Source of the DNA: Burkholderiales bacterium
GTDB taxonomy: Bacteria > Pseudomonadota > Gammaproteobacteria > Burkholderiales > Burkholderiaceae_C
DNA: 64,000 nt
Direction of reading: 5' to 3'
Assembly: GCA_028872015.1 (NCBI GenBank)
Contig: JAGWLO010000001.1
Span: 1 to 64,000 of the forward strand
A program made the translations under genes and the position numbers. Positions within the stretch are counted from its first letter, which is position 1. Each line of letters starts with the position of its first letter. The notes under the pieces are model-generated. The model was given only the letters and a program-made list of their open reading frames with translations. It searched no databases and was not told the DNA's origin. This document shows, in pieces, positions 17,782 to 34,783 of this stretch.

Positions 17782-19599
17782 TCAGCGGCCGCGCAGGAAC
17801 AGCGCGTCCAGCTCCTTCAGCGTCACCTGGCGCCAGGTCGGACGGCCGTGGTTGCAGGTGTCGGCCCGCTCGGTGGCTTCCATCTCGCGCAGCAGCGCGT
17901 TCATTTCCTCGAGGGTCAGGCGCCGGTTGGCGCGCACCGCGCCGTGGCAGGCCATCGTGGCCAGGATGTCGTCGCGCGCGCGCTGCACGATGCGGCTGGC
18001 GCCGCCGCTGTCGGGGTGCGCCAGCTCGGCCAGCACCGAGCGCGTGAGCTCGGCCAGGTCGGCATCGGGCAGCGCCGCCGGGCGGCTGCGCACCACCAGC
18101 GTGGCCGCCGCCAGCACCCCCACGTCCAGGCCCAGCGCCAGCAGGGCGGGCTGCTCGGCTTCGGCGGTGGCAATCTCGGCCGCCGTCGCCGCCAGCGTCT
18201 GCGGGATCAGCAGCGGCTGCGCCGGCAGCACGGCATCGGCGGCAGCCGCGCGCTTCAGGCGCTCGTAGACGATGCGCTCGTGCGCGGCGTGCATGTCGAC
18301 CACCACCAGGCCCTGCGCGTTCTCGGCCAGCACGTAGGCGCCGCCGATCTGCGCCAGCGCGCGGCCCAGCGGCCAGGCGCCGGCCGGCGCCGCGGGCTCG
18401 GGCCGCGGCACGGGCCAGGGGGGCCGGGGCTCGCGCGCGACCGGCGGCGCCTCGGCGAGCGCGAGCGCCCCCTGCCAGGCAGAGGCCTGGGAGGACACCG
18501 ACGCCGGCATCGGCATCGGCGCCTGCATCGGCGCCAGCACGGGTGCGTGCCCCGGTGCAGGCTCCGGGACGACCCCGGCCAGCGCCCGCGTGGGGGCCAG
18601 CGCGTCCTCGACCGCGTGGCGCAGCGCCTGGTGCACGGCGCGGCCGTCCCGAAAGCGCACCTCGACCTTGGTCGGGTGGACGTTCACGTCCACCAGCTCG
18701 GGCGCGATGTCGACGAACAGCGCGTAGGCCGGCTGGCGGCTGCCGTGCAGCTGGTCTTCGTAGGCCGAGCGCACGGCATGCGCCAGCAGCCGGTCGCGCA
18801 CGAAGCGCCCGTTCACGAACAGGTATTGCAGGTCGGCGCGGGTGCGTGCGGCCTCGGGCCGGCCCACGCGGCCGGCGATGGCCAGCGGCCCGCGCGTGGC
18901 TGCCAGCGCGCCGCTGTCGGCCATGAAGTCGGGGCCCAGCACGTCGGCCCAGCGGGCGGGCGCCGCGGCGGGACGCCACTGCGCGATCAGCCGCGCCTCG
19001 TGCCAGAAGGTGAAGCCGACCTCGGGCCGCGCCAGCGCGTGGCGGCGCACGGCCTCCAGCGCATGCGCCAGCTCGGTGGCATCGGTCTTGAGGAACTTGC
19101 GCCGCGCCGGCGTGCTGAAGAACAGCTCCTGCACCTCGACCGTGGTGCCCACGGCGCGCGCGGCCGGGGCGATCTCGCCGTCCCGCGCGTCCAGGCGCCA
19201 GCCGTGCGGGTCGTCTTCGGTGCGGGTGAGCAGGGTCACGCCGGCCACCGCGGCGATGGCCGCCAGCGCCTCGCCACGGAAGCCCATGGTCGACACCGAT
19301 TCGAGCTCGGCCAGGCTGGCGATCTTGCTCGTGGCGTGGCGCTTCAGCGCCAGGGGCAGGTCTTCGCGGGCGATGCCGCTGCCGTCGTCCTCGACCACGA
19401 TGGCGCGTACACCGCCGGCCACCAGCCGCACCACGATCTGGCGCGCGCCGGCGTCCAGCGCGTTGTCGAGCAGCTCGCGCACCACCGAGGCGGGGCGCTC
19501 CACCACCTCGCCGGCGGCGATCTGGCTGATCAGGGTGTCGGGCAACTCGCCGATGCGGCGCCGCACGGACCGCTGCAGCGGCAGGGCCGGAACGTTCAT
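17782..19599 (-). CDS. mutL: DNA mismatch repair protein MutL
   Basis: A 605-residue MutL that links MutS mismatch recognition to strand removal. The GHKL ATPase domain is clear (LPDTLISQIAAGEVVERPAS; ELLDNALDAGA; VEDDGSGI; TMGFRGEALAAIAAV), followed by an Ala/Pro-rich linker (about 340-410) and the C-terminal dimerisation domain. The C-terminal domain keeps metal-site motifs of endonuclease-type MutL (ACHGAVRAN and CNHGRPTWRQ), while the DQHA(X)2E(X)4E motif reads DMHAAHERIVYE, with Met for Gln. In many Burkholderiales mutL is followed by miaA; here a thioredoxin-fold gene follows instead. The ATG at 19599 fits the conserved start. Confidence 0.96.
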   Translation of the reverse strand: MNVPALPLQRSVRRRIGELPDTLISQIAAGEVVERPASVVRELLDNALDAGARQIVVRLVAGGVRAIVVEDDGSGIAREDLPLALKRHATSKIASLAELESVSTMGFRGEALAAIAAVAGVTLLTRTEDDPHGWRLDARDGEIAPAARAVGTTVEVQELFFSTPARRKFLKTDATELAHALEAVRRHALARPEVGFTFWHEARLIAQWRPAAAPARWADVLGPDFMADSGALAATRGPLAIAGRVGRPEAARTRADLQYLFVNGRFVRDRLLAHAVRSAYEDQLHGSRQPAYALFVDIAPELVDVNVHPTKVEVRFRDGRAVHQALRHAVEDALAPTRALAGVVPEPAPGHAPVLAPMQAPMPMPASVSSQASAWQGALALAEAPPVAREPRPPWPVPRPEPAAPAGAWPLGRALAQIGGAYVLAENAQGLVVVDMHAAHERIVYERLKRAAAADAVLPAQPLLIPQTLAATAAEIATAEAEQPALLALGLDVGVLAAATLVVRSRPAALPDADLAELTRSVLAELAHPDSGGASRIVQRARDDILATMACHGAVRANRRLTLEEMNALLREMEATERADTCNHGRPTWRQVTLKELDALFLRGR

Positions 19600-19713: not shown

Positions 19714-20373
19714 ATGCTTTCTTGTTTTGCCGAGCTGGTCACGCGCAGCGACGAGGACCGGCGTGGGTTCGAGACCCACCCGGTGGTGGTGGCCGCGGTG
19801 GCCGACGGCATGGCGGTGGAGCGCTACCGCGCGCTGCTGCTCGAGCTGTACCACGTGGTCTGGAACTTCAACCCGGTGTGCGCCGCCGCGGCCAGCCGCA
19901 TGGGCGACCCCGCGCACGAGGCGCTGCAGCCGATCCGCCACTTCCTGTACCAGCACATGCACGAGGAGGCCGGCCACGAGACCTGGGTGCTGAACGACCT
20001 CGAGGCCATCGGCGTGGCCCCCGAGGCCGCCCGCGCGCACGCGCCGGCGGCACACACGCTGGCGCTGAACGGCTACAACTACTGGGCCGCCGACCGGCGC
20101 CACCCCTGCTCGGTGCTGGGCATGCTGTACGCGCTGGAGGTGATCGCGTCGGTGTACGGCGGGCCGTTCGCCAGCGCGATCCGCGAATCGCTGCTGCTCG
20201 ACGGCGACCGCGGCGTCTCGTTCATCGACTCCCACGCCACCATGGACGCCCAGCACATGGCCGACCTGCGCAAGGTCCTCAACCAACTCGATGGCGAGGC
20301 CGCGCTGCAGGCCGTGGTGGAATCGGTGCGCGTCAATTTCCACCACTTCACCCGCATCATCGAGGCGATCTAG
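19714..20373 (+). CDS. Haem-oxygenase-like diiron protein (iron-containing redox enzyme family)
   Basis: A 219-residue all-helical protein with the ligand pattern of haem-oxygenase-like diiron oxidases: LLLELYHVVW (Glu...His), MHEEAGHETWVLND (Glu and His), LYALEVIA (Glu), and DSHATMDAQHMADL (His, Asp, His). Members of this superfamily (for example UndA, CADD, and the central domain of SznF) use two irons and O2 to oxidise fatty acids, amines or amino acids. The gene ends 9 bp before an RpfF-type fatty-acyl crotonase and is almost certainly co-transcribed with it, so a fatty acid or acyl thioester is a reasonable substrate guess. The ATG at 19714 begins the conserved region; the 114-bp gap from the divergent mutL start has to hold the promoter. 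Confidence 0.8.
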   Translation: MLSCFAELVTRSDEDRRGFETHPVVVAAVADGMAVERYRALLLELYHVVWNFNPVCAAAASRMGDPAHEALQPIRHFLYQHMHEEAGHETWVLNDLEAIGVAPEAARAHAPAAHTLALNGYNYWAADRRHPCSVLGMLYALEVIASVYGGPFASAIRESLLLDGDRGVSFIDSHATMDAQHMADLRKVLNQLDGEAALQAVVESVRVNFHHFTRIIEAI

Positions 20374-20382
20374 GGCTGCCGC

Positions 20383-21354
20383 GTGTCGCTCTATCCCACG
20401 CCCGCCGTTGGCGTTGCCGGCCTGCTGGGCCGGCCGTACAAGACGATCCGCCTGGAGTGGAGCTCCGAGCTGCGCCTGCTGCGCGTGCGCACCTGCGTGC
20501 GGCCCATCCAGTGCTACAGCCTGGCGGCGATGGGCGAGCTGCAGCAGATGCTGTCCGACATCAGCGCCAACCCGGGGCTGGTGCGCCACTTCGTGATGAC
20601 CTCGGACGTGCCGCGGGTGTTCAACTTCGGCGGCGACCTGGCGCTGTTCGTGCTGCTGGTGCGCGCCGGCGATGTCGATTCGCTGCGGCTGTACGGCCGG
20701 CGCTGCGTCGACCTGGTGTGGTGGATGGAGAACGCCGCCAGCCTGGGCGTGCACACCACCGTGCTGTCGCAGGGCGACACCCTGGGCGGCGGGCTCGAGT
20801 CGGTGCTGCCCTTCCACCGCATCATCTTCGAGCGCGGCGCGCAGGCGGGCTTCCCCGAGGTGCTGTTCAACCTGTTTCCGGGCATGGGCGCCTGGGACTT
20901 CACCATCCGCAAGGCCGGCTTCGCGGTGGCCAACGAGATGATCCTGTCGGGCCGCCTGTACAGCGCCGAGGAGCTGCACTACCGGCGCGTCATCGACGTC
21001 GTGGTCGACGACGGCCAGGGCGAGGCCGCCATCGAGCAGGTGGTGCGCGAGGTCGACCCGCGCCACCGCGGCGTGCTGGCCGCGCTGCGGGCCCAGCGCC
21101 TGGCCGCGCCGATCCGCTACGAGACGCTGCTGGCCATCGTCGACCAGTGGGCCGAGAGCGCGCTCGGCCTGACCGACCGCGACCTGCGGCTGATGGAGCG
21201 CCTGGCGCGCGCACAGGCACGCAAGGCCGGCGGCGCCGACGAAGGCGCGGTCGAGGAGATCAAGCGGCTCGAGCTCGAGCAGGCCTGGGGCGACCGCCGC
21301 ACCGGCTTCGACCGCCGGGCCGGCAGCCCGGACGACCGCCGCGTGCGCACCTGA
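20383..21354 (+). CDS. rpfF: RpfF-type crotonase (putative DSF fatty-acid signal synthase)
   Basis: A 323-residue crotonase-fold protein close to RpfF, which makes cis-2-unsaturated diffusible signal factors by dehydrating 3-hydroxyacyl-ACP and releasing the free acid. The two RpfF catalytic glutamates appear to be present in QGDTLGGGLESVLPFH (about 128-143) and AGFPEVLFNLFPGMGAW (about 153-169); the C-terminal half (SGRLYSAEEL; QWAESALGL; RLMERLARAQARKAGG) also follows RpfF. An Arg-rich 25-residue tail (DRRTGFDRRAGSPDDRRVRT) extends past the RpfF end. It begins at a GTG 9 bp after the diiron-protein gene. No RpfC/RpfG or RpfR receptor gene adjoins it. A generic enoyl-CoA hydratase is the alternative, but the GGGLE/FPEVLF spacing favours RpfF. 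Confidence 0.82.
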   Translation: MSLYPTPAVGVAGLLGRPYKTIRLEWSSELRLLRVRTCVRPIQCYSLAAMGELQQMLSDISANPGLVRHFVMTSDVPRVFNFGGDLALFVLLVRAGDVDSLRLYGRRCVDLVWWMENAASLGVHTTVLSQGDTLGGGLESVLPFHRIIFERGAQAGFPEVLFNLFPGMGAWDFTIRKAGFAVANEMILSGRLYSAEELHYRRVIDVVVDDGQGEAAIEQVVREVDPRHRGVLAALRAQRLAAPIRYETLLAIVDQWAESALGLTDRDLRLMERLARAQARKAGGADEGAVEEIKRLELEQAWGDRRTGFDRRAGSPDDRRVRT

Positions 21355-21357
21355 GGC

Positions 21358-21642
21358 TCAGGCGGCGTGCCGCCGCGCGACCCAGAAGGTGGCGCCTTCG
21401 GGGCCGTAATGCTCGGCGTGCGGCACCTCGCGCGCCAGCTCGAACCCGGCTCCGGCCACGATGCGCCGGGTGTGGCCTTCGCAGGTGAGCGCGAACTCGC
21501 CGCTGACCACCAGCGCCTTCACGGCGAACGGGTGCGTGTGCGTGGCCACGCGCTGGCCCGGCGCCCACTCGCGCACCAGCACCTCGTCGAAGCCCTGGGC
21601 CAGGGCCTGGTGCCTGAATTCCTCGAAGGTCTGGGTTTTCAT
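21358..21642 (-). CDS. Small cupin-domain protein
   Basis: A 94-residue single-domain cupin. The first metal-binding motif is present (THTHPFAVKALVVSGEFAL) and the second is reduced to REVPHAEHYGPEG, with His available. Such proteins bind a metal or a small ligand; the function is unknown. I take the second ATG (21642) because AAGGA sits 8 bp before it; the ATG at 21648 is too close to that site. It is convergent with the rpfF gene, with only 3 bp between stops, and 37 bp downstream of icmF on the same strand, so it may be read from the icmF promoter. Confidence 0.75.
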   Translation of the reverse strand: MKTQTFEEFRHQALAQGFDEVLVREWAPGQRVATHTHPFAVKALVVSGEFALTCEGHTRRIVAGAGFELAREVPHAEHYGPEGATFWVARRHAA

Positions 21643-21679
21643 GCGCATCGTCCTTGCAGGAGGTGACCGGGCCCCGAGC

Positions 21680-24600
21680 CTACATGCTGCGCCGGTACTG
21701 CCCGCCGACCTCGAACAGCGCGTTCGTGATCTGGCCCAGGCTGCAGCAGCGCACGGCGTCCATCAGCACCTCGAACACGTTGCCGTTGTCGATCACCGCC
21801 TGCTGCAGGCGCTGCAGCATCGCCGGCGACTCGGCCGCATGGCGGGCGTGGAAGTCGCGCAGCCGCTGCAGCTGGCTCTGCTTCTCGGCCTCGGTGCTGC
21901 GCGCCAGCTCGATCGCTTCGGGCACCGGGTCGCCCTGCGGGTTGCGGAAGGTGTTGACGCCCACGATCGGATATTCGCCCGTGTGCTTGAGCATCTCGTA
22001 GTGCAGGCTCTCTTCCTGGATCTTGCCGCGCTGGTAGCCGGTCTCCATCGCACCCAGCACGCCACCGCGCTCGGCGATCTTCTCGAACTCGGCCAGCACC
22101 GCCTCTTCCACCAGCTCGGTCAGCTCGTCGATGACGAAGGCGCCCTGGTTCGGGTTCTCGTTCTTCGCCAGCCCCCACTCGCGGTTGATGATGAGCTGGA
22201 TCGCCATCGCGCGCCGCACGCTCTCCTCGGTCGGCGTGGTGATCGCCTCGTCGTAGGCGTTGGTGTGCAGGCTGTTGCAGTTGTCGTAGATCGCGATCAG
22301 CGCCTGCAGCGTGGTGCGGATGTCGTTGAACGCGATCTCCTGCGCGTGCAGGCTGCGGCCGCTGGTCTGCACGTGGTACTTCAGCTTCTGGCTGCGTTCG
22401 TTGGCGCCGTAGCGGTCGCGCATCGCCACCGCCCAGATGCGGCGCGCCACCCGGCCCAGCACGGTGTACTCGGGGTCCATGCCGTTGCTGAAGAAGAAGC
22501 TCAGGTTGGGCGCGAAGTCGTCGATGTGCATCCCGCGTGCGAGATAGGCTTCGACGAAGGTGAAGCCGTTGCTCAGCGTGAACGCGAGCTGGCTGATCGG
22601 GTTGGCGCCCGCCTCGGCGATGTGGTAGCCGCTGATGCTCACCGAGTAGAAATTGCGCACGTCGTGATGCACGAACCATTCGGCGATGTCGCCCATCACC
22701 TTCAGGCTGAACTCGGTGCTGAAGATGCAGGTGTTCTGCCCCTGGTCTTCCTTCAGGATGTCGGCCTGCACCGTGCCGCGCACGTTGGCCAGGGTCCAGG
22801 CGCGGATCTTCTGCGCCTCGTCGTCCGTCGGCTCGCGGCCGTTGTCGGCCTTGAACCTGTCCAGGTTCTGGTCGATCGCGGTGTTCATGAACATCGCCAG
22901 GATCGTCGGCGCCGGGCCGTTGATCGTCATGCTGACGCTGGTGCTCGGGTTCGTCAGCTCGAAGCCGCCGTACAGCACCTTCATGTCGTCCAGCGTGGCG
23001 ATGCTGACACCGCTGTTGCCGACCTTGCCGTAGATGTCGGGCCGCGGGTCGGGGTCGTTGCCGTACAGCGTGACGCTGTCGAAGGCCGTGCTCAGGCGCT
23101 TGGCCGGCAGGCCCTCGCTGACCATCTTGAAGCGCCGGTTGGTCCTGAACGCATCCCCCTCGCCGGCGAACATGCGCGTCGGGTCCTCGCCCTCCCGCTT
23201 GAAGGCGAAGGTGCCCGCGGTGTACGGGAAGCTGCCCGGCACGTTGTCCAGCAGCAGCCACTTCAGGATCTCGCCCTCGCACTCGTAGGCCGGCAGCGCG
23301 ACCTTGCGGATCTTGCTGCCACTCAGCGTGGTGTGGACGAGCGAGGTGCGGATCTCCTTGTCGCGGATCTTCACCACGTACTCGTCGCCGGCATAGGCCT
23401 TGCGCATGTCGGGCCACATCGCGAGCAGCTTCTTCGCGTGCGGGTCCTGCTTCGCCTCGCGCTGCGCGGCGAGGTCGTGCACCGCCTCGACCGCGCGATG
23501 GCGGCCGGGCTTGTCGGTGGTCAGCATCGCGGCCGTGGCGCGCAGCTGCTGCAGCTCGCGCGCCAGCCGGCTCTGCGCGATCGCACGCCGCTTGTAGCCG
23601 CGCACCGTGTCGGCGATGTCGGCCAGGTAGCGCACACGCGCGGGCGGCACGATCGGCACCTGGTGCGTGCTGTGGCGCGTGGCCACGGCCGGCAGCCGGC
23701 CCTCGGTCACCGGCATGCCCAGTGCCGCCAGCCGCGGCCGCAGGGCCTGGTAGAGCGCGGTCACGCCGTCGTCGTTGAAGCGGCTGGCCATGGTGCCGAA
23801 CACCGGCATCTGCTCGGGCGCCTGCTTCCAGGCCTCGCGGTTGCGCTGCACCTGCTTGGCGACGTCGCGCAAGGCATCGGACGCACCCTTGCGGTCGAAC
23901 TTGTTGATCGCCACGAACTCGGCGAAGTCGAGCATGTCGATCTTCTCGAGCTGGCTGGCGGCGCCGAACTCGGGCGTCATCACGTACAGCGGCACGTCGA
24001 CCAGCGGCACGATGGCCGCGTCGCCCTGGCCGATGCCCGAGGTCTCGACCACGATGAGGTCGAAGCCGGCGGCCTTGCACGCCGCGAGGACGTCGGGCAG
24101 GGACTGGCTGATCTCGCTGCCGAAGTCGCGCGTGGCCAGGCTGCGCATGAACACGCGCGGGCCGGCGCCCCAGGGCCCGATCGCGTTCATGCGGATGCGG
24201 TCGCCGAGCAGCGCGCCGCCGCTCTTGCGCCGGCTGGGGTCGATCGAGATCACCGCGAGGCGCAGCGCGTCGCCCTGGTCCAGCCGCAGGCGGCGGATCA
24301 GCTCGTCGGTGAGGCTGCTCTTGCCGGCACCGCCGGTGCCGGTGATGCCGAGCACGGGTGTCTTCGAAGCCTGGGCGGCCGCCGTGAGCGAGGCCTTCAG
24401 CGCGGCCGGGGCGGCGCCGTTCTCCAGCGCCGTGATCGCCTGCGCCAGCGCGCGCCAGGCGGCGTCGGTGTGGCCCTGCAGCGCAGCGGCATCGGCCGGC
24501 GCATGCGGCGACAGGTCGTGGTCGCAGCGCATCACCATCTCGCCGATCATCCCGGCCAGGCCCATGCGCTGGCCGTCCTCGGGGCTGTAGATGCGGGTCA

Positions 24601-24973
24601 CGCCGGCCGCCTGCAGGGCGCGGATCTCGGCCGGCACGATGACGCCGCCACCGCCGCCGAAGACCTGGATATGGGCGCCGCCGCGCTGGCGCAGCAGCTC
24701 GACCATGTAGGTGAAGTACTCCACGTGGCCGCCCTGGTAGCTGCTGATGGCGATGCCCTGCACGTCCTCGTGCAGGGCGGCCGTGACGACCTCGTCGACG
24801 CTGCGGTTGTGACCCAGGTGCACGACCTCGGCACCCATGCCCTGAAGGATGCGCCGCATGATGTTGATGGCCGCGTCGTGGCCATCGAAGAGGCTCGCGG
24901 CGGTGACGAAGCGCACCTTGTGCACGGGGCGGTAGGCCGCCAGGGCCTGGTAGTCGGCGGAGAGCTCGGTCAT
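21680..24973 (-). CDS. icmF: Fused isobutyryl-CoA mutase (adenosylcobalamin-dependent)
   Basis: A 1097-residue IcmF: an N-terminal B12-binding domain ([17 protein letters not shown], with the cobalt-ligating His, residues about 28-44), a central MeaB-like G-protein chaperone with P-loop [13 protein letters not shown] (about 208-220), and a C-terminal acyl-CoA mutase barrel (about 520-1097). It interconverts isobutyryl-CoA and n-butyryl-CoA in valine and fatty acid metabolism. In [11 protein letters not shown] a Phe stands where methylmalonyl-CoA mutase has the substrate-pocket Tyr, as expected for IcmF. Two of the three parts are separate genes in other mutases, and length agrees with known IcmF. 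The ATG at 24973 begins the conserved region ([11 protein letters not shown]). A perfect 20-bp palindrome about 104 bp upstream probably controls it. Confidence 0.95.
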
Positions 24974-25076
24974 GGCGTGCGGGAGGTCGGGCTGAGGGGG
25001 CAGGGCAGCTGGGAGGCAGGGCGCGGGCAGGGTGGCGACGAAGCCACGCACCGGCCGCAGGCCCTCCGCCTTCGGT

Positions 25077-25096: not shown

Positions 25097-25233
25097 GATC
25101 GCATCATGCCACCGCGGGGTGTTGCCGATGCCCGCGCCGGGCCACCGTTCATGGTTAACCCGCAGCAGGCGGCGGCATGGCCCGGCGAGCGCGCTGCTAC
25201 GCTCGCGCCCCCGGCATCCGGCACCGACTCCCC

Positions 25234-26013
25234 ATGAGCTTCCTGGCCATCGACATCGGCAACACCCGCCTGAAGTGGGCGCTGTATGCGGCGCCGCACC
25301 CGGGGGCCACGTTGCTGCGCCACGGGGCGGTGTTCGTCGAGGCCATCGACGAGCTGGCCGAGCGCGAATGGCAGGGCCTGCCCGAGCCCGCCAGCATGCT
25401 GGGCTGCGCCGTCGCCGGCGAGGCGGTGCGGCGGCGCGTGGAAGAGCAGCTCGAGCTGTGGGACCTGGTGCCGCACTGGGTGGTGCCGGCCACGCGCGAA
25501 GCCGGGCTCGTGAACGGCTACGACCACCCCAGCCGCCTGGGCGCCGACCGCTGGGCGGCCTTGGCGGGGGCGCGCTCGCGGGCGCTGGCCGGCGCGCCCG
25601 CCGGCGACCGGCCCCCGCCGGCGCTGGTGGTGATGGTGGGCACCGCGGTCACGGTGGACGCGCTGGACGCCGACGGACGCTTCCTGGGCGGGCTCATCCT
25701 GCCCGGCTTCGGCCTGATGCTGCGCGCGCTCGAGATGGGCACCGCCGGGCTGCGCGTGCCCACGGGCGAGGTGGTGGACTTTCCCAGCAACACCAGCGAC
25801 GCGCTGATGAGCGGTGGCGCCAACGCCATCGCCGGTGCCATCGAGCGCCAGGCCCGGCGCCTGCACGCCCGAGCCGGCGCCGCGCCGCTGCTGCTGATGA
25901 CGGGGGGCGCGGCGGCCAAGCTGGCCCCCATCACCGATCTGCCCTTCGAGACCGTCGACACCCTGATCTTCGAAGGCCTGCTGCTGATGCAATCGCACCG
26001 GCTCAGCTTCTAG
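25234..26013 (+). CDS. coaX: Type III pantothenate kinase
   Basis: A 259-residue CoaX that phosphorylates pantothenate in the first committed step of coenzyme A synthesis. Motifs of the ASKHA fold are in order: [12 protein letters not shown] (about 5-16), [11 protein letters not shown] (about 106-116), [10 protein letters not shown] with the second phosphate loop, [21 protein letters not shown], and [12 protein letters not shown] start it at the ATG at 25234 because the fold begins there; 19 further residues upstream are unrelated. It is commonly followed by or fused near birA in beta-proteobacteria; here a hybrid kinase gene runs toward it with 10 bp between the ends. Confidence 0.95.
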
Positions 26014-26023
26014 CGCCGGCGCG

Positions 26024-27895
26024 CTACAGCCAGCGCTGCAGCAGGTCGAACAGCTGCATCCGCGAATAGGGCTTGGCCAGGTGCGCGTCCATGCCCGCGG
26101 CCAGGGCGTGGGCGGCGTCGTCCTGGAACGCGTTGGCGGTCAGCGCCACGATGGGCACCCGGGGCTGGTGCAGCCGGGCCTCGCGCTCGCGCAGCTGGCG
26201 CGTGGCGCTGTAGCCGTCGAGCACCGGCATCTGGATGTCCATCAGCACCAGGTCGACGCGGGCGTGCGTCAGCAGCGTCATGGCCTGCGCGCCGTCCTCG
26301 GCCTCGATCACCTCCAGGCCGAGGGACTTCAGCATCTCGGCGCCGATCATCCGGTTGACGACGTTGTCCTCGACCAGCATCACGATGCCGCTGAGCGAGG
26401 CGCCCGGCTCGAGCGCGCCGAAGTCGGAGTCGTGCGAGGGCAGCGGCAGGTGCGAGGTGACCGGCAGCACGAGCGTGAAGCTGAAGGCCGAGCCGACGCC
26501 GGGCTGGCTGCGCACCGAGATCTCGCCCCCCATCTCGCGCACGATGCGCTGGCTGATGGCCAGGCCGAGCCCGGTGCCGCCGCGCAGGCGCGAGCGCGTG
26601 CCGTCGATCTGGTGGAAGGGCTGGAACACCCGCTGCTGCGCCGCGGCGTCGATGCCGATGCCGCTGTCCTCGACCGTGAAGGTGACGCGGCAGGCCTGGG
26701 GGCCGGCGGGCACGGCGCTCAGGCTCAGCGCCACGCCGCCGCGTTCGGTGAACTTGACGCCGTTGCCCAGCAGGTTCAGCAGCACCTGCTTCAGGCGCGG
26801 TGCGTCGCCGACCACGCCGTCGGGCACGCCCGCGTCCAGGTGCAGGCCCAGGGTGAGGCCGCGGTTCTCCGCGTTGGCGCGGATCAGCGCCGCCGCCGAG
26901 GCCGCCACCGAGTGCAGCGACATCGGCGTGGCAGCCAGGATCAGCTTGCCGGCCTCGATCTTGGAGTGGTCCAGCACGTCGTTGAGGATGTCCATCAGGG
27001 CCTCGCCCGAGGTGGCGGCGGTCTTGACCAGCCGCCGCTGCCGCGGGTCGAGCGAGGTCTGGCGCAGCAGTTCGAGCGCACCCAGCACGCCATTCATGGG
27101 CGTGCGGATCTCGTGGCTCATCGTCGCCAGGAACTGGCTCTTGGCCTCGTTGGCCGCCTCGGCGGCGACCTTGGCCTGCAGCAGGTCGGCGTTGGCGGCG
27201 TCCACCGCCGCCTTGGTCTGCCGCAGGTCGGCGTTGGCCAGCTCCACCTCGTTCTTGGCCCGAATCAGGCCGGCGTTGGCCGCGTCGGCCTGCAGCCCCT
27301 GGCGGATGGCCCGCAGCGCCGTGTCGCGAAATTCGCGCGTGGCCAGCAGCATGGTCGCGCCGAACAGCACCGCCAGCACCGCCAGCGGCGGCGACCGGGC
27401 CGCCCCCGGCAGCAGCGAGACCACCGCCAGCGAGCCCAGTTGCAACAGGGTCAGCAGCAGGAAGCTGCGGCCCGCCATCGACATGAAGAAGGCGCCGGTG
27501 GCCACCGAGCCGCAGACGATGACGACGTACACCGTGGCCGTGGTGCCGCCGAGCGTGGGGTAGATGGCCGAGGTGGCCGTGGCCCACATTGCGCCCACGG
27601 CCAGCGCGTTGGCCTCGAGCGCGCGCACGATGGCCGCGATGCGCGGCGGTGCGATGGACTCGGTGCTGCCGCCGAACTGCCGGCCCAGCATCCAGCGCCA
27701 GGCCGCCACCCCCAGCCCCATGGCGGCGACGACGCTGGCGGCGGCGCGATCCCCGGCATGCCAGCCCAGCCAGGCCACGAACAGCACCGCCACGGTCAGC
27801 AGCCACACGCTGCGCCCCGAGTTGCGCACGGCCACGCGCAGCATGCTGCGCTGGACGGCTGCTTCTATGACTTCGGAGCCGGCTTCAGGCGTCAT
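26024..27895 (-). CDS. Membrane-bound hybrid histidine kinase with receiver domain
   Basis: A 623-residue sensor kinase. About six membrane helices occupy residues 27-195 without a large periplasmic domain, as in MASE-type sensors. A coiled coil of three imperfect 14-residue units ([14 protein letters not shown]-type, about 200-246) leads to the H-box [18 protein letters not shown], then the ATPase domain ([17 protein letters not shown]). A receiver domain at the C-terminus (about 505-623) has the phosphoacceptor Asp in [13 protein letters not shown] and the signalling Lys in [11 protein letters not shown]. There is no HPt domain, so a separate phosphotransfer partner or direct output is needed. 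No response regulator gene is adjacent. The signal is unknown. Start at 27895 from the first conserved residues; the longer open frame is a shadow. Confidence 0.93.
27181..27280 (-). repeat. 42-bp imperfect tandem repeat in the kinase gene
   Basis: The sequence GCAGGTCGGCGTTGGC (plus-strand reading) recurs at 27181-27196 and exactly at 27223-27238, with a close copy at 27265-27280, a period of 42 bp. It encodes the 14-residue coiled-coil units between the membrane and catalytic parts of the hybrid kinase. Each unit is two heptads, so copy changes would keep the coiled-coil register. Confidence 0.8.
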
Positions 27896-27987
27896 GGGCG
27901 CCGGAGGATAACGCGCACCGCAGGCCCGCGCGACCCCAAACACGGCCGCGGCCGCCGTTCCGGCTCGAGCCCGCTGCGGGCCCGCGA

Positions 27988-33794: not shown

Positions 33795-34670
33795 TCAGAC
33801 CAACGCCCGACCGCTCAGCCGCTCGAGCACCCGCAGGGGCGAACGCGCCGGATCGTGCATGGCCGCCACGGGCAGGTGCCAGGTCTGCTCCAGCGCATAC
33901 TGGCCGCGCATCGCGGCGTGCGAGGCCTGGTCGGTGTAGACGAGCCAGGTGCAGCCGGGCTCGAAGGCGTGCGTGACCTGCGGCACCTCGGCCTGGTAGG
34001 CGGCGTCGGCCTTCATCGCATCGTGCAGGCCCAGCATGTAGTGGTCGTAGGCGCTGCGCCGGCGTTTGGTGACGTGCAGCCAGTGCATCAGCGCGCTGCT
34101 GCCGGGCCTCGGCGGGCGCAGCGCGGGCAGGAAGCGGCGCGCCACGTCCTCGAACGGCGCGCCCAGGCGCCACACGCGCGGCTGGCCGCTCGGGTTGACG
34201 TTGCTGAACACGCGCAGGATGCGCGTGCCCTGCGTGGGCGACGACGGGAAGCTGTCCACGTGCAGCCGCGTGTCGTCCTTGCGCCAGGAGATCTGGCGGC
34301 CGGCGATCTCGGCCGGGCGGAAGCTGGTGCGCGCCTGCTGCAGCGCCGCGCCATAGCCGGGCAGCAGGTGCTGCAGCAGCGCGCGCGTGGCCGCCGCATA
34401 GCGCTGCAGCAGGCCCTGCAGCAGCCGCTGCAAGGCCGCATCGGCGTCGGTGCCGCGCACCCGGCCGGTGAGCGGGTCGAGGCTGATGTTCTTGCCCTTG
34501 CCCTCCAGCGCCGCGGACAGCAGCCGCACCTCGTCGCCCTGCAGCGCGAACGGCAGCTGCGGCAGCAGCAACACGCTGCCCTGCTCGAGCGCATCGACGG
34601 CGGCGGCCTGCTCGTCGGCGGTGGCCGGCGCGTCCCAGCGCGCCAGCCGCAGGCGGGTGATCGGGTTCAT
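33795..34670 (-). CDS. kdoO: Kdo hydroxylase (Fe(II)/2-oxoglutarate-type dioxygenase)
   Basis: A 291-residue protein matching the Kdo 3-hydroxylase family of Burkholderia and Yersinia, which hydroxylates the outer Kdo sugar of the lipopolysaccharide inner core at C-3. The N-terminus (LEQGSVLLLPQLPFAL) and GKGKNISLDPLTGRVRG are family-typical. The iron ligands are likely His and Asp of RLHVDSFPSSPTQG (HxD) and His in VTHAFEPGCTWLVYTD. It starts at the ATG at 34670, divergent from the lipid A hydroxylase gene across 113 bp that includes a TACAAT (34729-34734). The pairing supports a shared role in remodelling the lipopolysaccharide. Confidence 0.85.
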   Translation of the reverse strand: MNPITRLRLARWDAPATADEQAAAVDALEQGSVLLLPQLPFALQGDEVRLLSAALEGKGKNISLDPLTGRVRGTDADAALQRLLQGLLQRYAAATRALLQHLLPGYGAALQQARTSFRPAEIAGRQISWRKDDTRLHVDSFPSSPTQGTRILRVFSNVNPSGQPRVWRLGAPFEDVARRFLPALRPPRPGSSALMHWLHVTKRRRSAYDHYMLGLHDAMKADAAYQAEVPQVTHAFEPGCTWLVYTDQASHAAMRGQYALEQTWHLPVAAMHDPARSPLRVLERLSGRALV

Positions 34671-34783
34671 CGCGAAGGTCTCCTGGGTGACGGCACCAAG
34701 AGTAACCCAAGGCCGCGGCGCGGCTAAATACAATGCCGCTGCCGCTCGACCGTCGTGCATCCTGGCCAGCGGGCCCGTCTCGA

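Follow-up and report, generated by a model that had tools for sequence, protein, structure and literature searches.

Conserved pairing of a haem-oxygenase-like diiron oxidase with RpfF suggests a variant of the Rpf/DSF signaling system in Burkholderiales

Introduction

Diffusible signal factors (DSF) are cis-2-unsaturated fatty acids that vary in chain length, branching, and substitution, as excerpts of PMC6361424 describe them. According to the accessible part of PMC4504480, the synthase RpfF converts a 3-hydroxyacyl-acyl carrier protein (ACP) to a free cis-2-enoic acid and can also release saturated acids, and the Xanthomonas-type cluster is arranged as rpfB-rpfF facing rpfG-rpfH-rpfC. Here we describe a related locus in a 64,000-nucleotide stretch from a Burkholderiales bacterium (assembly GCA_028872015.1, contig JAGWLO010000001.1, positions 1 to 64,000), hereafter the window. 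A gene for a haem-oxygenase-like diiron oxidase (HDO; 219 residues, 19714..20373, plus strand) is followed after 9 bp by a gene for an RpfF-family DSF synthase, a crotonase of 323 residues (20383..21354, plus strand). We propose that the HDO acts as an oxidase of the RpfF fatty-acid product.

The RpfF/RpfR system of Burkholderia and Cronobacter operates, to our knowledge, without an HDO. It shares an RpfF-family synthase with our locus, but its receptor, the PAS-GGDEF-EAL protein RpfR (PMC4504480, in part), differs from the kinase described below. Excerpts of PMC13108848 count only about a dozen characterized HDOs and give three histidine and three carboxylate ligands (3H/3C) as the majority ligand set. 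For the HDO UndA, a fatty-acid decarboxylase, they describe a free acid bound to Fe1 through its carboxylate, C3 lying close to the cluster.

Results

The HDO matches PF14518 (Haem_oxygenas_2) with an E-value of 1.3e-22 and 80.9 bits against a cut-off of 28.9, and its best solved relative by sequence is 3dde (3.8e-14). The predicted fold is the haem-oxygenase alpha-helical bundle that typifies the HDO superfamily, and it matches haem oxygenase as well as HDOs. We set haem oxygenase aside because of the metal ligands, not the fold. Six residues (E85, H88, E142, H174, D178, and H181) are invariant in all 61 aligned HDOs and supply the 3H/3C set of the superfamily. They are complete in 43 of 43 rpf-linked HDOs and in 18 of 18 members of a second HDO subfamily, and they align with six like residues of UndA and with residues of 3dde. 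UndA agrees with the window's HDO in fold and ligands, but the two are 16% identical, and the profile E-value for UndA (7.5e-6) is weaker than those for 3dde (6.2e-26), CADD (1.7e-7), and MboA (1.5e-6); 3dde and CADD are nearer in sequence. We know of no case in which UndA is tied to a signal synthase. A first-pass annotation of the window had described two plus-strand genes of these lengths 9 bp apart, the first with the Glu/His ligand layout of an HDO, and both statements hold.

The second gene had been annotated as a crotonase with the RpfF motifs GGGLE and FPEVLF, and it is a true member of the RpfF family. The motifs occupy residues 135-139 and 157-162, and E139 and E159, which we take to be the RpfF catalytic pair, are invariant in the 19 RpfF-family rows aligned. 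The protein matches PRK08788 (NCBIfam) at 1.8e-90 and 303 bits, above the cut-off of 177, and its best PDB match is RpfF itself (3m6m, 9e-48; 6dgn, 2.7e-40). The score against the RpfF equivalog NF053515 (6.4e-56, 189.6 bits) falls far under its cut-off of 550, as does that of an RpfF from the second lineage described below (L086, 218.9 bits). A tree against enoyl-CoA hydratases had been suggested as a check. We kept four of 12 own-genome hydratases, dropped one badly cut RpfF (L066), and thinned the RpfFs without an HDO from 28 to 15. The resulting 49 RpfF-family rows, including the window's, split from the four hydratases with 99/99 support, ruling out a generic enoyl-CoA hydratase. The window's RpfF lies on a long branch in a sub-clade of 17 rows (100/100). 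The tree did not support a single common origin of the HDO-linked RpfFs (p-AU 0.055).

Two side observations concern RpfF. Its C-terminal tail (window 21289-21351) carries repeated (E/D)RR motifs that are found in 11 of 13 aligned genus members and are absent from six RpfFs of other families. In a Piscinibacter aquaticus record (L054, 8673-9600), the RpfF match falls in two separate pieces, which suggests a frame break or a sequencing error.

The HDO and RpfF genes adjoin far more often than chance allows. We searched 309 genomes of the family with RpfF alone. An RpfF-type match was present in 24 genomes, and 19 of these were of the window type (63-100% identical). The HDO lies directly upstream in all 19, and no HDO was found within about 1.5 kb to either side at the seven RpfF loci of the other five genomes. 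Within the genus, RpfF is present in 14 of 37 genomes; an HDO of the linked type (at least 339 bits) occurs in all 14 and in none of the other 23. Among 399 genomes of the order, 60 have an HDO match and 72 have RpfF. Comparing these two tables, all seven HDO matches of at least 181 bits adjoin RpfF, and none of the 53 matches at or below 113 bits does. Conserved adjacency had been named as a test of the pair, and these family, genus, and order samples rule out an unconserved pairing.

The HDO family as a whole is not specific to rpf loci. Another HDO, at 134-143 bits, is found in six genomes of the genus, including three without RpfF (G014, G018, and G024). Among 369 genomes of the class, the window's own HDO alone scores above 245 bits. 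For the next best match, in G554 at 245 bits, the surrounding 8 kb or so contains no RpfF, and none was found in the fetched flanks of 13 class loci from other genomes (L199-L211). The older context of the HDO subfamily may not be rpf. The intermediate HDO of G554 (L212, 7693-8334) follows an open reading frame that looks globin-like by eye.

Nearly all linked loci come from records titled betaproteobacteria, Burkholderiales, or genera thereof. Exceptions by record title include L095 (Rhodospirillales), L041 (Silanimonas), and L067 (Glaciihabitans). Metagenome-assembled records labeled Bordetella parapertussis (L087), Glaciihabitans, and Silanimonas carry the module, and their labels or bins may be wrong. 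The linked HDO subfamily is also found in named strains of the environmental genera Piscinibacter, Rhizobacter, Azohydromonas, and Schlegelella.

The pair occurs in two gene orders. A scan of GTDB genomes (one per species) with an HDO profile gave 130 loci, of which we retained the best 80. Clade A accounts for 61 of these 80 and contains HDOs at least 57% identical to the window's. HDO and RpfF read in the same direction in 59 of the 61, and the contigs of the other two stop at the HDO; in 33 of the 59, the stop and start codons may overlap by 4 bp. Clade B comprises the remaining 19 loci (HDO 42-48% identical), in all of which HDO and RpfF are convergent with stops -28 to 99 bp apart. The rpf-linked HDOs in our tree, 35 from clades A and B, form a single clade (96/99).

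The order in clade B is RpfG-RpfC-HDO facing RpfF. In all 16 loci with at least 3.4 kb upstream, an RpfC-like kinase reads toward the HDO together with an RpfG-like regulator (domains checked in L092). Of the 16 regulators, 13 are full length; the contig start truncates those of L083 and L098, and the match in L099 covers the receiver part only. The RpfFs of L135 and L142 sit with this second lineage in the tree; no HDO was found in the flanks fetched for these loci, and the kinase faces RpfF directly. In five of the 16 loci, rpfC and HDO are separated by a gene of the fatty-acid hydroxylase family that reads from the opposite strand. Carriers of PF04116 between the rpfC-like gene and HDO are L085, L088, L089, L092, L094, and L105, and the L092 copy weakly resembles the ornithine-lipid hydroxylase OlsE.

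These orders can be compared with the Xanthomonas rpf cluster, with which our locus shares an RpfF synthase and convergent sensor-kinase genes. The second-lineage locus L092 has a membrane kinase of HisKA-HATPase-REC-Hpt layout and a REC-HD regulator of the HD-GYP type (layout as in the accessible part of PMC4504480). Clade B keeps the geometry of rpfG-rpfC facing rpfF, with the HDO inserted between them. Our loci differ by the added HDO, and no RpfB was recognized nearby, although no dedicated RpfB search was made. The kinase of the window's lineage has another N-terminal sensor, no Hpt, and no adjoining RpfG.

That kinase is a hybrid histidine kinase of 623 residues (26024..27895, minus strand). 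It had been noted as an orphan about 5 kb away and not a clear partner, a view that our results do not support. HisKA, HATPase_c, and receiver domains (Pfam) follow a strongly hydrophobic N-terminus, giving it an RpfC-type domain set in which the membrane part is assigned by hydropathy only. In clade A, 51 loci extend 2 kb or further past rpfF; its sensor region is found in 34 of them, and in 30 of the 51 the kinase is convergent within 3 kb after rpfF. Two of the other 17 (L040 and L057) have a partial kinase at the contig end. The RpfF-only family sample has a matching kinase in the fetched flank at 14 of 19 window-type loci. Across the genus, the kinase is present in all 14 genomes with RpfF and in four of the 23 without it (Fisher p 5e-7, relatedness ignored); G008 and G016, with weak sensor matches of 62-64 bits, were excluded from this count. 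The kinase cannot be dismissed as an unrelated orphan, with the caveats that those four RpfF-negative genomes retain it and that two of the seven family RpfF loci without an HDO match its core too (41-44%).

Three results weigh against the link between kinase and signal. G015 and G032, genus genomes without RpfF, have the kinase beside coaX. No Hpt domain was found in the window's kinase (26024-27898, E 0.01); the kinase of the second-lineage locus L092 has one. The sensors of the two lineages gave no cross-match (tblastn, 1e-6), and for this reason we do not file the window's kinase as RpfC. There is no RpfG (REC-HD-GYP) beside the window's module; three HD-region matches lie elsewhere in the genome, one of which (L175, 32%) covers the receiver part too. 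We treat the hybrid kinase as a candidate receptor.

IcmF, a fused isobutyryl-CoA mutase/GTPase (21680..25051, minus strand; NCBIfam IcmF, 1939 bits, above cut-off), type III pantothenate kinase (coaX, 25177..26013, plus strand; PF03309, 4.9e-44), and a small cupin-like gene separate RpfF from the kinase in the window, and L034 has the same order minus the cupin. The cupin-like protein (96 residues, 21358..21648, minus strand) is convergent with rpfF and lies 3 bp past it; its cupin matches are weak, with AraC_binding barely above cut-off. It is not a conserved member: of the loci examined from other genomes, L022 and L057 alone have it. IcmF also lies downstream of rpfF in L022, L034, L037, L039, L040, and L057, and it could influence the branched-chain primer supply for a branched DSF. 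coaX flanks the kinase in loci of ten other genus genomes. Upstream, divergent from the HDO gene, is MutL (17782..19599, minus strand; NCBIfam MutL, above cut-off), whose cluster is present in 22 clade-A loci. A gene of the Kdo hydroxylase family (PF11004, 4.9e-111) lies 12 kb downstream, at 33795-34760.

The second HDO subfamily of the order is 25-32% identical to the window's HDO and shares its six ligands, while 25 positions set it apart from the rpf-linked group. It was never found beside RpfF, neither among the 53 order matches nor in L109-L131. By eye, it follows an AMP-binding-type gene in 19 of these 23 loci, an assignment that Pfam confirmed in L112. Genes for a short-chain dehydrogenase and for a TPR-containing protein follow in that locus. 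This subfamily may belong to a separate uncharacterized oxidative pathway.

Discussion

Our searches of an open-access library listed no paper seen to join RpfF with an HDO. Three candidates for a prior report were set aside: the diiron protein cited in PMC4212101 and in PMC12072042 is an HD-GYP phosphodiesterase, and "Tena" in PMC4768671 is an author name. These findings suggest that the pairing is a variant of the Rpf/DSF system so far undescribed in the literature we found, rather than another kind of system.

From the ligand set, the predicted fold, and the conserved linkage, we infer how the module might work. RpfF would convert 3-hydroxyacyl-ACP to a free cis-2-enoic acid. The co-expressed HDO would hold this C10-C14 product by its carboxylate at the diiron site, in the way that UndA holds lauric acid, and then oxidize it with O2. 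The HDO is well placed for this role because it is made together with RpfF and has the same ligands as UndA, which binds a free acid. UndA is thought to attack an sp3 C3-H; in a cis-2-enoic acid the C3-H is vinylic, so the likeliest reaction would be desaturation or hydroxylation at the allylic C4 rather than decarboxylation of the UndA type. The oxidized DSF would then be sensed by the membrane hybrid kinase. The fatty-acid hydroxylase family gene in clade B offers a supporting hint of a fatty-acid substrate or oxidation, and the AMP-binding-type gene before the neighboring HDO subfamily is a further hint for the mechanism. A fatty-acid substrate, which the first-pass annotation had anticipated, is plausible; that annotation had also suggested that the pair may make an oxidized, desaturated, or decarboxylated DSF-like signal. 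Whether the locus is a quorum-sensing module of the Rpf/DSF type with such an extra oxidation step seems to us evenly balanced. More tentatively, and leaning somewhat against it, we consider a separate DSF branch in which the diiron oxidase converts the RpfF product to a new signal whose synthesis depends on oxygen, such as a 2,4-dienoic, a hydroxylated, or an acetylenic acid, and in which two different kinases read this signal in two lineages.

Other explanations keep the pairing and change the task of the HDO. The HDO might remove saturated free acids that the RpfF thioesterase frees from the acyl-ACP pool, perhaps through a decarboxylation like that of UndA, and so stand in for RpfB, the Xanthomonas acyl-CoA ligase that counteracts this release according to PMC4504480. 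UndA substrates are free mid-chain acids (PMC13108848, in part), and no acyl-CoA ligase was recognized by eye in the 45 largest neighbor clusters, for which no Pfam test was made. Decarboxylation would be wasteful of acyl chains, however, and RpfF systems without an HDO are common; we regard such clean-up as rather unlikely. The HDO could also inactivate DSF in an O2-dependent manner, setting the lifetime of the signal and tying it to oxygen. This would suit the second lineage, in which the HDO comes after the rpfG-rpfC sensing genes and not before the synthase. In the window's lineage, by contrast, the HDO gene is upstream of the synthase gene and often overlaps it, so the signal would be destroyed while it is made, and the excerpts of PMC13108848 name no HDO with this role. 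We consider turnover an unlikely function.

The HDO might instead be no signal enzyme at all, but a protein whose binding gates RpfF or the kinase, or a sensor of O2 or iron. In RpfC systems, contact with another protein regulates RpfF activity, and the near-fixed order of the pair suggests a fixed stoichiometry. Retention of the six metal ligands in every rpf-linked HDO aligned favors catalysis, and we find a pure protein partner quite improbable. An accident of adjacency that hitch-hiked within one bacterial group would fit the almost exclusively betaproteobacterial or Burkholderiales titles of the linked loci and the isolated position of the window's HDO among the class genomes. It is close to refuted by the perfect co-occurrence in the genus, the family sample drawn with RpfF alone, and the two gene orders, which come with two different kinases.

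With an oxidase conserved beside the synthase, DSF production would gain an enzymatic tailoring step, and the signal might come to depend on oxygen. An orphan HDO subfamily, represented by the best 80 of 130 loci, gains a likely substrate class. The gene set is small and present in named environmental strains, which makes the proposal directly testable. If the oxidized signal is real, its chemistry would report cell density and oxygen together.
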